This document shows, piece after piece, positions 2,200 to 41,172 of a DNA stretch of 64,000 nt (the stretch's first letter is position 1; each line of letters starts with the position of its first letter). Made by a program: the position numbers and the translations under genes. The notes under the pieces were generated by a model that saw nothing but the letters and a program-made list of their open reading frames with translations, was not told where the DNA came from and did no database searches. Source of the DNA: Phormidium tenue FACHB-1052 (lineage in GTDB: Bacteria; Cyanobacteriota; Cyanobacteriia; Phormidesmidales; Phormidesmidaceae); NCBI RefSeq assembly GCF_014696675.1, contig NZ_JACJQN010000011.1:62001-126000 (forward strand). The letters run 5' to 3'.

Positions 2200-2829
2200 T
2201 CAGTCGTCTATTTTTTTCACTAAATAGGCTGACAGCATCGCCATCAGTTCTTGCTCAAATTCCTCAGTATTGAACAACTCAGGGCGATCGATCATCGCCC
2301 CATGAATCAAGGCTCGAATCGTGCGCTCAACCATGAAAACCGTTAACTCTAGATTTTTCGGTTGCAGCTGATCAGAGCGTTGCGCGAGAAACGATCGCAG
2401 CATATTTTCCATTTTTGCTTCATCCAATCGCCGCATCACGTCACTGTGGGGAATCTGTTCATGCAGAACGCGATGCAGTTTCGGATTGACGGCATGGGCA
2501 GCGATCGCAGCTTTGACAATTTGCCGCAGCACCTTTGGAATCGTGCGTTCGCCAACGCTTGATTCCTTTAAGTGGTGTTGAGCCAACTGCACCATTTCAT
2601 TAGCGTGATGCTCGGCCAAGGCAAAGATCAAAGCCTCTTTATTCGGAAAGTATTGGTACAGCGAGCCGATACTCACACCAGCCCGTTCTGCCACCCGATT
2701 TGTCGTCAACTGGTCGTACCCGTTTTCCGTCAAAATATGAGCCGTTGCTGTGAGAATTGCCTCAACCGTGGCCTGCGATCGCTCTTGTTTCGGGTGTTTA
2801 CGCGGGTTTGCAGCGGGTTTAGGGGGCAT
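2200..2829 (-). CDS. TetR/AcrR family transcriptional regulator
   Basis: 209-residue one-component repressor. Residues about 15-65 form the TetR helix-turn-helix (TVEAILTATAHILTENGYD, then GVSIGSLYQYFPNKEALI). The rest is an all-helical ligand-binding and dimerisation domain of normal length. It is divergent from the glycosyltransferase at 2946, and the 116-bp gap contains a small palindrome, so it most likely controls that gene and itself. The ligand cannot be read from sequence. Confidence 0.9.
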   Translation of the reverse strand: MPPKPAANPRKHPKQERSQATVEAILTATAHILTENGYDQLTTNRVAERAGVSIGSLYQYFPNKEALIFALAEHHANEMVQLAQHHLKESSVGERTIPKVLRQIVKAAIAAHAVNPKLHRVLHEQIPHSDVMRRLDEAKMENMLRSFLAQRSDQLQPKNLELTVFMVERTIRALIHGAMIDRPELFNTEEFEQELMAMLSAYLVKKIDD

Positions 2830-2884
2830 TGGTAGGTCTTGTAGAAATGCGAGTTGTCAGGGCAGTGCGATCTTCATAAAATAC

Positions 2885-2896
2885 GAGCAATCGCTC
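2885..2896. promoter_or_regulatory. Candidate operator between TetR and glycosyltransferase genes
   Basis: The 4+4+4 palindrome GAGC-AATC-GCTC is in the divergent intergenic region, next to a TAAAAT hexamer that could serve as a -10 box. It is short, and it is proposed mainly because TetR repressors usually bind the gap next to their own gene. Confidence 0.3.
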
Positions 2897-2945
2897 ACAT
2901 TTTAGGCATAAGTCCCTCGGTGAACAACAAAACGGAGCATCATTT

Positions 2946-4229
2946 ATGCGAATTGCAATCATTGCCATGGGAAGTCGAGGCGATGTTCAGCCCTACGTTG
3001 CGTTGGGTAAGGGCTTAAAAGCAGCCGGGCACAGCGTTCGACTCGCCACCCATGAAAACTTTGAATCGTTAGTCACTTCCCATGGGCTAGCGTTCTATCC
3101 TCTCAAGGGCAACGTCCAAGCCTTTCTGGAAGATCCTAAGAACCGTCAACTGCTGGAAAGCAGAAATTTTCTAAAGATTAATGCGCGCACGGCGGTAGCT
3201 TATCAACGGGCCGCGATTGACTGGGCAAAAGGGGGGGTCGTGGCTTGTCAGGATGCAGATCTGATAGTTGCCGGGGTGGGTGGACTGTTCTTAAGTGTTG
3301 CGCTTGCCGAAAAGCTGAATCTACCCTTACTACAAGCGTACATTTTTCCGTTCACGCCCACCACCGCTTTTCCGGCTATTTTGTTTCCCCAAGCAATTTC
3401 TAAACTGGGTGGCGCTGTTAATCGGCTCTCCCATCAGTTATTTCGACAGATTATGTGGCAGGGCTCTCGCAAAGGGGATACATTAGCTCGCCAACAAGTC
3501 CTTCATTTGCCGCCGACCCCATTTTTTGGCAACTATGGCGCGGTGCAGTTTCAGCAATACCCGATTCTGTATGGGCTAAGTCCATCGGTGATTGCGAAAC
3601 CCTCGGACTGGCAAAATACCCATGTAACAGGCTATTGGTTCCTGGAAGAAGCACCAGATTGGACTCCACCCGCCGCAGTCCTAGAGTTTCTGCAAAAAGG
3701 CGCTCCACCTGTGTTTATCGGCTTTGGCAGTATGGTGAGCCGAAACCCAGAAGAAACAGCCGATCTCGTCTTACAGGCGATCCAACTTACGGGGCAGCGC
3801 GCTATTTTGCAGTCGGGTTGGAGTGGTTTGAGCAAGAGCGACTTACCAGACACAGTTCTAATGGTGGATTCAATTCCTCATTCCTGGCTGTTCCCACGGG
3901 TTGCAGCGGTCGTTCACCATGGGGGCGCGGGAACTACGGCGGCTGGACTGAGAGCAGGGGTGCCTGCGGTCGTGATTCCATTCTTTGGCGATCAGCCCTT
4001 TTGGGGGCAGCGGGTCGCAGAATTAGGCGTGGGGACAGCATCAATTCCCCGCAACCAACTCACTGCGGAAAGACTAGCAGCAGCAATTCACCAGGCTGTG
4101 GGCGATCGCGCCATGGGTCAACGCGCCGCCGATCTTGGGGCAAAAATTCAAGCCGAAGCTGGGGTCGCCAATGCAGTCGAAATCATATCCGAACTGCCCT
4201 ACGCTACCCCGGCAAACATGGCTTCGTAG
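2946..4229 (+). CDS. GT1-type (UGT/MGT-like) glycosyltransferase
   Basis: 427 residues with the two-domain GT-B layout of sterol- and macrolide-type glycosyltransferases. The N-terminus has MRIAIIAMGSRGDVQPYVALG, the usual acceptor-domain signature. The C-terminal nucleotide-sugar site reads HHGGAGTTAAGLRAGVP followed by PFFGDQPFWGQRV. It probably transfers a sugar from a UDP donor to a lipid or small hydrophobic acceptor; the acceptor is unknown. The last 31 bases overlap tail-to-tail with the SDR-fold gene on the other strand. Codon choice and GC look lower than in flanking genes, which would fit acquisition together with the divergent TetR. Confidence 0.88.
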   Translation: MRIAIIAMGSRGDVQPYVALGKGLKAAGHSVRLATHENFESLVTSHGLAFYPLKGNVQAFLEDPKNRQLLESRNFLKINARTAVAYQRAAIDWAKGGVVACQDADLIVAGVGGLFLSVALAEKLNLPLLQAYIFPFTPTTAFPAILFPQAISKLGGAVNRLSHQLFRQIMWQGSRKGDTLARQQVLHLPPTPFFGNYGAVQFQQYPILYGLSPSVIAKPSDWQNTHVTGYWFLEEAPDWTPPAAVLEFLQKGAPPVFIGFGSMVSRNPEETADLVLQAIQLTGQRAILQSGWSGLSKSDLPDTVLMVDSIPHSWLFPRVAAVVHHGGAGTTAAGLRAGVPAVVIPFFGDQPFWGQRVAELGVGTASIPRNQLTAERLAAAIHQAVGDRAMGQRAADLGAKIQAEAGVANAVEIISELPYATPANMAS

Positions 4230-37922: not shown

Positions 37923-38225
37923 ATGGCTACAGAGACTCCCCAACTCAGCAAAGTCTTAGAGATGCTGCACCAGCTCAAACCTCTCTTGGTAGAAACATAT
38001 GGTGTCACTCGCCTAGGAATTTTTGGCTCTGTTGCTAGAGATCGATCGAAGGAAGTCAGCGACGTAGACATCGTGGTTGAAATGGCTCCTGACTTATTCA
38101 CTATGGTTCATCTCAAAGAGCATCTTCAAAGCGTTTTGCAAGTCCCCGTTGATATTGTTAGATATCGACCAACAATGAACCCAGTGCTGAAGCAACGCAT
38201 TGAGCGAGATGTCATCTATGTATGA
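37923..38225 (+). CDS. mntA: MNT-type nucleotidyltransferase antitoxin (second module)
   Basis: 100 residues. GS-x10-DxD at Gly35-Ser36 and Asp47/Asp49 (FGSVARDRSKEVSDVDIVVE), followed by VPVDIVRYRP with the third acidic residue. Expected to AMPylate and neutralise its HEPN partner, whose start overlaps this stop by 8 bases. It differs enough from the 14961 copy that it is not a recent duplicate. Confidence 0.88.
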   Translation: MATETPQLSKVLEMLHQLKPLLVETYGVTRLGIFGSVARDRSKEVSDVDIVVEMAPDLFTMVHLKEHLQSVLQVPVDIVRYRPTMNPVLKQRIERDVIYV

Positions 38226-38601
38226 TCGCGAGGTGTTGCGAGAGATCCTTCACCAAATTTCAGCAGCTATTGATCGAATTGAGCGGCGATTTGCAGGAAT
38301 TCAATCTGCCGAAGATTTTATCCAAGATGATGAGGGCGTAGACAAGCTTGATGGCATTGCTATGATGCTCATTTGGATGGGAGAGAGTATTAAGAACCTA
38401 GAAAAGGTGGGGGGAAAAGACTTACTGAATGCGTATCCAAATGTTGACTGGAAAGGCGCTAAAGGTACTCGTGATATTCTCAGCCATCATTACGAAGATA
38501 TAGATGCAGAGGTTGTTTTTTATATTTGCGATCGCTACCTTGGCTCCATAAAGATAGCAATCAACGGGATGATTCAACAGCTAGAGAATCATGATTGTTA
38601 A
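38218..38601 (+). CDS. hepT: HEPN-domain toxin (HepT-like, second module)
   Basis: 127 residues from ATG 38218 (MYDREVLREILHQISAAIDR). An all-helical protein with R-x4-H-x-Y at Arg85, His90 and Tyr92 (RDILSHHYEDID), the RNase and AMPylation motif of HepT. DDEGVDKLDGIAMMLIWMGESIKNL is typical of the DUF86 clade in cyanobacteria. Translationally coupled to the antitoxin gene. Confidence 0.87.
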   Translation: MYDREVLREILHQISAAIDRIERRFAGIQSAEDFIQDDEGVDKLDGIAMMLIWMGESIKNLEKVGGKDLLNAYPNVDWKGAKGTRDILSHHYEDIDAEVVFYICDRYLGSIKIAINGMIQQLENHDC

Positions 38602-38827: not shown

Positions 38828-39688
38828 TTACTGATGTGCCTGGGCCATTGCCTCTGCGGGGGGACGCACCACACGACGAGCTAAACCCAGTTTTTCTAAG
38901 ACCCAAATGGCGTACCAGGTGACATCGACTTCCCACCAGCGCCAGCCTGCGGGGGCCACGTTGGGGAAGGCGTGGTGGTTATTGTGCCAGCCTTCACCGT
39001 AGGTGAGCAGCGCCGTCCACCACAGATTGCCCGAGCTGTCTTCGATGTGAAAGCGGCGCTTGCCCCACATGTGGGTTGCCGAGTTGATCAGCCAGGTCGA
39101 GTGCCACAGCAGGGTAATTCTCAGAAAGCCGCCGTAGATGACAAAAGACCAGCCGCCGAGGGCAAAGAGGGCGATCGCAACCGGCACTTGCAGCAGCAGA
39201 AAGTTGCGATCGAGCCAGCGGTAGTAGGGGTCGCGGGCAATATCGGGAGCATAGCGACGATAAATCTGGCCGTTAAAGACTGCCGGATTGCGGTACACCA
39301 TCCACAGCATGTGGCTCCACCAAAACCCGCGACTGGCGGCGTAGGGATCTTTTTCAGCATCTTCAGTGTAGAGGTGGTGCTGGCGATGCCCCGCCACCCA
39401 AAAGATCGGGCCACCCTGGAGCGCCATCGCGCCAATTGTCGCGATCGCATATTCTAACCACTGGGGCACCTGCAAGCTGCGGTGGGTGAGCAATCGGTGA
39501 TAGCCCAAACAAATGCCAATGCTGCCAAACAGCCAGTGCAGCGCCACCATCACTCCTAGGGCCGACCATGAAAAGAACCACGGGGCCAGCAGGGCCGCGC
39601 CGTGAATAGCGGCCAAAAAACCTACCAATGTCCAATCCAGGTCTTTGACTCCCCGTTTTTCTGGGGCTTGCTTCAGCGTTGTTGTCAT
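38828..39688 (-). CDS. desC: Acyl-lipid delta-9 fatty acid desaturase
   Basis: 286 residues. Introduces the first double bond at C9 of lipid-bound stearoyl/palmitoyl chains using ferredoxin and O2. The diiron His boxes are HRLLTH (His64, His69), HRQHH (His101, 104, 105) and HNNHH (His235, 238, 239), with membrane helices between them. The short length and GEGWHNNHHAFP match cyanobacterial DesC. Membrane desaturases in cyanobacteria are often cold-responsive. The leader of about 125 bases is predicted to hold two hairpins, and an unusual TetR-like gene lies divergent upstream. Confidence 0.93.
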   Translation of the reverse strand: MTTTLKQAPEKRGVKDLDWTLVGFLAAIHGAALLAPWFFSWSALGVMVALHWLFGSIGICLGYHRLLTHRSLQVPQWLEYAIATIGAMALQGGPIFWVAGHRQHHLYTEDAEKDPYAASRGFWWSHMLWMVYRNPAVFNGQIYRRYAPDIARDPYYRWLDRNFLLLQVPVAIALFALGGWSFVIYGGFLRITLLWHSTWLINSATHMWGKRRFHIEDSSGNLWWTALLTYGEGWHNNHHAFPNVAPAGWRWWEVDVTWYAIWVLEKLGLARRVVRPPAEAMAQAHQ

Positions 39689-39797: not shown

Positions 39798-39818
39798 TTT
39801 GCAAGTGTCGCTTGCAAA
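39798..39818. promoter_or_regulatory. Operator candidate 1 (desC/TetR gap)
   Basis: The 8-bp perfect arms TTTGCAAG and CTTGCAAA are separated by TGTCG. It would cover the transcription start of desC and abut the -35 box of the regulator gene. Confidence 0.6.
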
Positions 39819-39847
39819 TTAACTCTAGCAAACTTCTCTGGTAAAAT
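39819..39847. promoter_or_regulatory. Overlapping divergent promoters
   Basis: Plus strand: TTAACT (39819-39824), 17-bp spacer, TAAAAT (39842-39847). Minus strand: TTGCAT (39851-39846), 18-bp spacer, TAGAGT (39827-39822). The two share nearly the same 30 bp, so they would compete or be co-repressed. Confidence 0.55.
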
Positions 39848-39860
39848 GCAAGTGTTGCTT
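39847..39860. promoter_or_regulatory. Operator candidate 2 (degenerate)
   Basis: TGCAAGTGTTGCTT repeats the left arm, spacer and part of the right arm of operator candidate 1. It overlaps the predicted transcription start of the regulator gene, about 10 bases before its ATG. Confidence 0.45.
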
Positions 39861-39870
39861 TCTTTTTGCT

Positions 39871-41172
39871 ATGGCAGGTCAGCGCCAATCAGCCCGACAG
39901 CGTCTCGTAGATGCGGCATTTCAGCTTTTTTCTAGCCAGGGGGTGGGCACTACCACCACTCGCCAGGTGGCCGATCTGGCGGGGGTGAACGAGGTCACGC
40001 TGTTTCGCCAGTTTGGCAGCAAGCATGGCTTGCTTGCTGCGGTCATGACTGAGGCTGAGGTGTTGTCTGGTTCAGACTATGGTTTTGATCTGGCGGCTCT
40101 AGCTCAAACTCCTATCGACCAGTCTCTAAGGGAGTTTCTGAGTCAGTGCTTGGCTACCCTCGATCAACTCTCCGAGCTGGTGCGATCAGTAATCGGTGAG
40201 GCCGGGCAATTTTCCGCCGACAATAGCCAGGCTATGGGGCGCGGGTTACAGACCATTCGTAACTTTATCGCTGAGTACCTGGAGGCGCATTTGGCTCCAG
40301 GGGACACCGCTGGCCTGTCGCCGGAGGAGGTGGCGGGGCTGGTGATGGCACTGCTGCTGGGCTATGCGGCGATCGACAGCACCACCGCAGGTGCTAACGA
40401 GAACGGCATGGAATTTCATCGGCTGTGGTCTAGCAGGAACGCCTTTATCGAGAGTATCGTCAGTTGGCTGCTCAGCCTCCGGCCCCATGCCGAGGCTGGG
40501 CTTACCCCAGCTCAGCCCAGCCTTACTCCACCCGACACAGAGAGCTGGATCGACCTACCCGCCCCGGTGATCCATGAGATTATGCAGGCCGCTCGCAAGG
40601 CTGGCAATCAGACCCATGCCCTGATCTACGTGCTGCTGGGGGCCGGGGTGGCGGCAGCAGAGGTGCCGCTGCTAACCCGCGCTAGCGCCCTTTACGACAG
40701 TAGCCAGCACATCTTGCTGATTGGCCCTCAGCAACGCCAAGTACCGCTGAACCAGTGGATTATGGGAAAGCGCTACGGCACCTACACCAAAAACCCGCTT
40801 ACCCGCTGGATCAAAAGCCGCAGCGATGCGTCACCAGCCATGTTTTTGGGGCCGGATGATCAGCCAATTACGCCTTTGCGGGTGCGGCAGCTGTGGGCCG
40901 AGGTCACAACCGGCATCATGTCGTCCACTAGTGAGCCGCTTGGGGTTGAGCAGGCTCGCGCCACCTGGTGTGTTGAGATGCTGCTGAGGGGGCTAAACCG
41001 TCAGGAACTGAGCCTGTTGAGTGGACTGTCGGTAGAGCAACTCGACCCGCTAGTGCAAAAGGCCCAGGCGCGATCGGCCCTGGCCCTGGCCCTACGCCTT
41101 GATCAACAGCCCGGTTCAGCCCCAGTCACTCTCGACAAGCCTGGGGATATTAGCGCGGGGGGCAATGACTAG
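39871..41172 (+). CDS. TetR-family regulator fused to a recombinase-like C-terminal domain
   Basis: 433 residues, about twice the usual TetR length. Residues 1-205 are a TetR protein (HTH at about 28-50: TTTTRQVADLAGVNEVTLFR). Residues about 228-400 follow the tyrosine-recombinase catalytic layout. ALIYVLLGAGVAAAEVPLL aligns with the arginine-I box (Arg replaced by Ala261), QARATWCVEMLLRGL with the HxxR box (His replaced by Glu360, Arg363 kept), LLSGLS with LLGHS, and Val395 stands where the Tyr should be. It is therefore expected to be catalytically dead. Divergent from desC over shared promoters and operator-like repeats. No ribosome site; the predicted leader is only about 17 bases. Confidence 0.8.
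   Translation: MAGQRQSARQRLVDAAFQLFSSQGVGTTTTRQVADLAGVNEVTLFRQFGSKHGLLAAVMTEAEVLSGSDYGFDLAALAQTPIDQSLREFLSQCLATLDQLSELVRSVIGEAGQFSADNSQAMGRGLQTIRNFIAEYLEAHLAPGDTAGLSPEEVAGLVMALLLGYAAIDSTTAGANENGMEFHRLWSSRNAFIESIVSWLLSLRPHAEAGLTPAQPSLTPPDTESWIDLPAPVIHEIMQAARKAGNQTHALIYVLLGAGVAAAEVPLLTRASALYDSSQHILLIGPQQRQVPLNQWIMGKRYGTYTKNPLTRWIKSRSDASPAMFLGPDDQPITPLRVRQLWAEVTTGIMSSTSEPLGVEQARATWCVEMLLRGLNRQELSLLSGLSVEQLDPLVQKAQARSALALALRLDQQPGSAPVTLDKPGDISAGGND

Follow-up and report, generated by a model that had tools for sequence, protein, structure and literature searches.

A TetR regulator with a relic tyrosine-recombinase domain and its predicted control of a cyanobacterial desaturase gene

Why should a bacterium keep, at the end of a transcriptional regulator, a recombinase domain that has lost its catalytic residues? 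The question is raised by one gene in the window, by which we mean the whole stretch of 64,000 nucleotides analyzed here. Judged by its relatives, the gene (39871–41172, + strand, stop codon included; 433 amino acids) encodes a TetR regulator with a relic tyrosine-recombinase domain. The stretch 39798–39870 on its 5′ side is intergenic, and its divergent neighbor is a fatty acid desaturase gene of the desC type (38828–39688, − strand; PF00487, 71 bits), the predicted target of the regulator. We call the desaturase gene desC, the name used in an earlier sequence-only reading, which none of the protein models gives. The genome's nearest named relatives carry the labels Nodosilinea and Leptolyngbya.

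A recombinase domain without its active site

The N-terminal half is a TetR protein, as the sequence-only reading had stated. Its helix-turn-helix (TetR_N, PF00440) covers residues 12–58 (39904–40044, + strand) at 49 bits, with a cut-off of 24, and is matched in all 73 family members that were scanned singly against Pfam, the window's own protein being counted among them. For the TetR core, a putative ligand and dimer domain (residues about 59–202; 40045–40476, + strand), the window protein reaches 19.9 bits with TetR_C_7, below the cut-off of 22; a TetR C-terminal domain is matched at E ≤ 5 in 37 of the 73 members.

The relic domain follows at residues of about 226–412 (40546–41106, + strand). 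Alone, the C-terminal part of the window protein gives no match in Pfam or NCBIfam and a single PDB row at E 0.47, and its gene is not among the 17 places that PF00589 (Phage_integrase) finds in its own genome. The ancestry of the domain hence rests on its relatives. PF00589 is matched at E ≤ 5 by 48 of the 73 members (best E 1.6e-12, 47.9 bits; cut-off 27.1), the window protein being one of the 25 that give no such match. When ten chosen relatives were searched, nine matched PF00589 at E ≤ 1, seven of them above the cut-off of 27.1 bits. The window domain and its counterpart in one relative, L018, share 46% identity, and L018 scores 42 bits with PF00589. The PDB was also searched with a profile of the 73 C-terminal parts. 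The best match is XerA of Pyrococcus abyssi (4a8e; E 3.5e-11, positions 6–185 of 191), followed by the Tn1549 integrase and XerD, and Xer and Tn1549 enzymes are the nearest named matches of the profile. A match to RecC at E 0.016 was taken as chance. Comparison across the family thus points to a Xer-type tyrosine recombinase as the ancestor of the C-terminal domain, and the recombinase-like half noticed in the single sequence is borne out with slightly wider limits. The core-binding domain of recombinases is absent from the Pfam tables of the window protein and the ten relatives, and the 25 Pfam families listed for the 73 members, out of 69, do not include DUF3504.

From the single sequence it had been claimed that Ala261 replaces the first catalytic Arg, Glu360 the His of the HxxR box and Val395 the Tyr, with Arg363 retained. 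When the 73 members are aligned, the window residues at the catalytic columns R, H, R, H/W and Y are A261, E360, R363, L386 and L394. Hence, three of these assignments hold, and the residue at the Tyr column is Leu394 rather than Val395, one residue off. Decay of the active site is general: the first Arg is kept in 3 members and lost in 70 (Ser in 40, Thr in 12, Ala in 7), and the His of HxxR is kept in a single member and lost in 72 (Glu in 40). At the second Arg column Arg is found in 24 of 73 and Gln in 38, at the His/Trp column Trp in 23, and at the Tyr column Tyr in 60, Phe in 7 and Leu in 6. The full catalytic set is present in none of the 73 aligned members. The residues at these columns make it very likely that the domain is catalytically dead. 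One relative (L096; domain at 2531–3124 of its stretch, − strand) is little decayed: four of its five catalytic columns still read Arg, Arg, Trp and Tyr, and it scores 45 bits with PF00589.

Loss of catalysis has not led to loss of constraint. Mean pairwise identity among the 73 members is 0.73 in the helix-turn-helix, 0.51 in the relic domain, 0.44 in the TetR core and 0.14 in the linker. A domain that is better conserved than the TetR core, and far better than the linker, is by this measure still under selection. Among the stretches compared outside the helix-turn-helix the best conserved is residues 289–320 (40735–40830, + strand; RQVPxNQWIxGKRYG...NPLTxWLKSRxD); residues 286–320 have a mean pairwise identity of 0.67. 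The alignment to 4a8e places within this conserved stretch an insertion after the VPL strand that is new relative to XerA. The relic domain carries little net charge (+3 in the window protein).

Structure models neither confirm nor refute the recombinase fold. A full-length model built from 19 rows (the window protein and L004–L021) has a mean pLDDT of 57.4, and the list of 50 fold matches to this low-confidence model includes FadR, KstR and DesT. The relic domain, modeled from 17 of the 19 rows (without L006 and L011), has a mean pLDDT of 59.8. Recombinases and integrases fill the first 11 places of the PDB list that Foldseek gave for the domain model; none is significant (best E 0.25, at a mean pLDDT of 60), and for that reason the model was not used as proof of the fold.

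Putative operators and predicted promoters before the desaturase gene

The fusion is not a local oddity, and its generality had been understated in the sequence-only reading. Across the class, 291 genomes were sampled and 163 of them match the window protein at E ≤ 1e-25, a count that includes TetR-only and partial matches, and matches that run through the relic come from 21 family codes. The divergent arrangement with the desaturase gene, noticed before in the window, recurs at 105 of 107 loci. The two exceptions are a tandem locus (L074) and one without a desaturase gene within its stretch (L083); a second tandem locus (L140) lies beyond the 107. These loci include genomes fetched twice and reduce to 94 distinct proteins after merging of identical ones. 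One contig labeled Candidatus Gracilibacteria (L021) bears the cyanobacterial tetR-desC module with both operators and is probably misbinned. The window also contains, at 37923–38601 (+ strand), genes for an MntA-like nucleotidyltransferase (PF18765/PF01909) and then a HepT-like ribonuclease (PF01934), probably a type VII toxin-antitoxin pair, with Pfam matches above and NCBIfam matches below the cut-offs.

The gap holds two putative operators, in agreement with the two repeats built on GCAAGTG that had been read from the window. O1 (TGCAAGTGTCGCTTGCA; 39800–39816, + strand) forms with its flanks a perfect inverted repeat, TTTGCAAG-5-CTTGCAAA, and O2 (TGCAAGTGTTGCTTTCT) lies at 39847–39863 (+ strand). 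We searched the 300 bases before the TetR start for the 17-base pattern TGCAAGTGnnACTTGCA, requiring at least 11 of 15 positions. Among the 94 distinct proteins, the upstream stretch has two sites in 84 cases, three in 2, one in 4 and none in 4. At least two sites are therefore found in 86 of 94 real stretches compared with 1 of 1880 shuffled ones; one site occurs in 65 of 1880. The shuffles were of single bases and preserve base composition alone, a simple control. One strand was read in this main count, and both strands in a follow-up (11 of 15 positions) and in the desaturase controls described below (12 of 15). The four loci that show no site before the TetR gene (L020, L048, L102 and L074) have the pair elsewhere, beside desC. 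Counting fusions only (the 94 minus two TetR-only rows, plus L138, L139 and L140), the pair is present at 92 of 95 loci, and L073, L083 and L101 have a single site. This count leaves aside a protein cut by a contig end (L142), one whose frame is broken near a contig end (L143, which does show the pair) and eight TetR-only rows (L071, L072, L141 and L144–L148). One of the single-site loci, L073 (2480–4063, − strand), encodes a 528-residue form.

Conserved palindromes of this kind before a TetR gene are most likely the binding sites of TetR dimers. An arrangement with one operator for each gene was set aside, as the pair stays with desC where the gene order differs: in L074 and L140, tetR points toward desC, and the intervening gap holds both sites, just before desC. 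The two loci share a genus code and may represent one event. Desaturase genes without a TetR neighbor serve as controls. The pair (sites of at least 12 of 15 positions, both strands) is found at none of 28 such loci from 22 genomes, and the fairest among them are five desaturases that are 65–68% identical to the window enzyme. In the window's own genome, O1 is the sole exact match to the pattern; with one mismatch the scan finds O2 and eight other places, one of them inside desC, and the reversed control gives three. From this distribution the regulator looks dedicated to the desC locus. O2 is itself a one-mismatch site, so there may be real targets among the other eight.

The operators lie on predicted promoter elements. 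On the desC strand, pattern matching gives a −35 element, TTGCAT, inside an O2 half-site (39846–39851, − strand) and an extended −10 element, TGCTAGAGT, of the form TGnTAnnnT (39822–39830, − strand). For tetR, a general promoter scan predicts TTAACT-17-TAAAAT (39819–39847, + strand), which is the only one of the two promoters that it lists; no desC promoter is among its results. Of the overlapping promoters that had been proposed, the one for tetR thus appears in the scan, while the one for desC is supported by comparison. When 84 distinct spacers are compared, 74 have TGnTAnnnT on the desC strand, as against a mean of 5.0 of 84 after shuffling with base composition kept, and 66 of the 74 elements sit 5–7 bases from O1. 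The O2 edge reads TTGCAN in all 84 spacers, which follows largely from the operator sequence itself. TTGCAN and TGnTAnnnT are separated by 17 bases in 49 spacers, 18 in 24 and 16 in 1. Taken together, the extended −10 elements and their distance from TTGCAN imply that O2 overlaps the predicted desC −35 and that O1 covers the predicted transcription start. O2 also lies where the predicted tetR −10 ends. The suggestion of an operator at each predicted start now has comparative support. Self-control is less well supported than control of desC, given that TGnTAnnnT is found on the tetR strand in only 5 of 84 spacers; this tally overlooks any −10 that extends into O2, like the one in the window.

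Spacing between the operators says little about whether they are bridged. Among the 84 two-site loci the distance is 47 bases in 35 and 46 bases in 23, about 4.4 helical turns, which places the two sites on opposite faces of the DNA. Looping forced by this spacing was considered and set aside, as the distance between −35 and −10 already fixes it. For the same reason the spacing is no evidence for bridging.

Relatives without the relic

How the relic joined the regulator can be approached through relatives that lack it. Six genomes of one genus (g13, family f5) carry a TetR-only relative and one operator in the gap. In all six gaps this operator belongs to TTGCAT-17-TAnnnT, that is, O2 without O1. 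Two further TetR-only proteins from one genus of family f24 (L072 and L141) retain both operators. They nest among the fusions in the tree with starred support and look like secondary losses of the relic. The operator pair can therefore persist without the relic.

These observations fit an order of events in which a TetR protein alone with O2 came first and the relic and O1 were then acquired together. The coincidence of a single operator with a missing relic in f5 counts as one event, since this group is a single long-branched lineage. Keeping the fusions, together with the two f24 losses, separate from f5 and the outgroup gives a tree that scores 20 log units above the free quick tree (p-AU 0.81), in which the TetR-only f5 group falls inside a larger mixed group. 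Based on 104 rows, a quick search and long branches, the constrained test is no proof of a clade; seven of 111 rows had been dropped for it (L138, L139, L140, L150, L108, L074 and L094). Separate Xer-like recombinases occur in each of the three f5 TetR-only genomes, out of six, that were searched (L188, L189 and L190; open frames of 336–366 residues). Among ten genomes searched with the relic profile they are the best separate relatives of the relic, and L188 scores 107 bits with PF00589.

A proposed desaturase repressor, its alternatives and known systems

We propose that the protein is a dedicated regulator of the adjoining desC gene, most likely a repressor that would also control its own gene. 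One TetR dimer would bind each palindrome, the two palindromes bracketing the desC promoter. With O2 over the −35 and O1 over the start site, RNA polymerase would have no access. By analogy with DesT and MadR, and from the FadR, KstR and DesT matches of the low-confidence full-length model, an acyl chain is the probable ligand of the TetR core. The relic would most likely retain its ancestral contact with DNA and with neighboring subunits, and so couple the binding of one dimer at O1 to that of the other at O2. As the predicted target, the desaturase gene is well supported by gene context and operators, and its control through O1 and O2 appears highly probable. Given such control, there is good reason to expect repression. 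The relic as a second DNA-binding or dimerization unit, an idea already raised by the sequence-only reading, is what we infer from its descent. The proposal as a whole, a desC repressor and self-regulator acting at two sites with the relic aiding joint action of the dimers, is tentative, and we would put it slightly short of an even chance. Its boldest form is on the unlikely side: there, the relic would keep synapsis and tie both operator-bound TetR dimers into a single higher-order complex at the desC promoter, relic and O1 having been gained together early in cyanobacteria.

The main rival to joint action of the dimers accepts the same desC regulator and differs in what the relic does. The relic could be a protein-interaction or sensing module, for example for RNA polymerase or for a temperature or redox partner, which makes no contact with DNA and leaves O1 and O2 independent of each other. 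We regard this as a possibility to be taken seriously, if a somewhat doubtful one. It would explain why the best-conserved part includes the new insertion and not the old active site alone, and it agrees with the near-neutral charge of the domain, with a promoter geometry that accounts for the operator spacing and with the two TetR-only genomes that keep both operators. It does not explain why the second site is exactly what the single-operator TetR-only lineage is without. It also has the ancestry of the domain against it, as tyrosine-recombinase domains are by descent domains that bind DNA and each other.

The remaining alternatives concern the sign of regulation and whether the relic is either more active or less useful than we propose. 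Activation of desC in place of repression is improbable: sites that cover the predicted start (O1) and the predicted −35 (O2) have the classical geometry of a repressor. Still, O2 borders the promoter on its upstream side and the predicted −35 (TTGCAN) is a poor match, which makes an activator at O2 thinkable. Saturated as well as unsaturated acyl-CoAs are reported to act on FabR of E. coli and DesT of Pseudomonas, with repression enhanced or relieved (PMC8872791). We give hardly any credence to recombination by the domain in some members. The Tyr that most members keep and the little-decayed L096 would speak for it, but the complete catalytic set occurs in no member, the first Arg and the His are lost in nearly all, and Pfam gives the window protein and ten relatives no core-binding domain. 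It is also very improbable that the relic is an inert passenger, even if one genus has lost it with its operators intact, as it is conserved above the TetR core across the 73 members and found in matches from 21 family codes.

Compared with what is known, the proposal of a two-site desC repressor would supply a specific regulator, two operators and a promoter placement for desC, drawn from about ninety distinct loci. When we searched titles and the beginnings of abstracts in the open-licence PMC literature, we found no TetR-recombinase fusion, no description of its operator and no TetR regulator of a cyanobacterial desC, which is weak evidence of novelty, nor did these searches turn up a regulator named for the first step of membrane desaturation in cyanobacteria. 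The passages available from a review of recruited prokaryotic mobile elements describe recombinases that regulate through DNA rearrangement and contain no such fusion (PMC8987985). In Synechococcus 7002, a low-oxygen DesC isoform is described as being under ChlR, a MarR-type regulator (PMC4500134).

The closest functional parallel is with DesT and MadR, and it lies in the regulation of desaturase genes, a target that is predicted here from gene context and operators. The operator and the host group are unlike those of the window regulator. To our knowledge, DesT and MadR are also plain TetR proteins with no recombinase domain. DesT of P. aeruginosa and MadR of M. tuberculosis are described as TetR-type regulators of fatty-acid desaturase genes (PMC8872791). 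With XerA, XerD and other Xer-type enzymes the relic shares homology over nearly the whole catalytic domain; unlike them, it is without the catalytic residues, has an insertion after the VPL strand and has no core-binding domain in Pfam.

If our reading is true, the fusion would add a bacterial case in which a recombinase domain was retained for a regulatory role once catalysis had gone, and should synapsis have been kept as well, it would amount to the domestication of a prokaryotic recombinase in gene control. The tetR-desC system is small enough for testing what such a relic does. A eukaryotic counterpart exists in the DUF3504 domains of animals, described by Kojima and Jurka as Crypton recombinase domains without most of the catalytic tetrad, present in transcriptional regulators (PMC3212892). 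DNA binding or protein-protein contact was proposed for these domains, for which no function had been reported at that date. As in KCTD1, ZMYM2/3/4, QRICH1 and WOC, a catalysis-depleted tyrosine-recombinase domain stands beside another DNA-binding domain (PMC3212892). DUF3504 is eukaryotic and derived from Cryptons, whereas the relic described here is prokaryotic, nearest to Xer-type enzymes and joined to a TetR protein.
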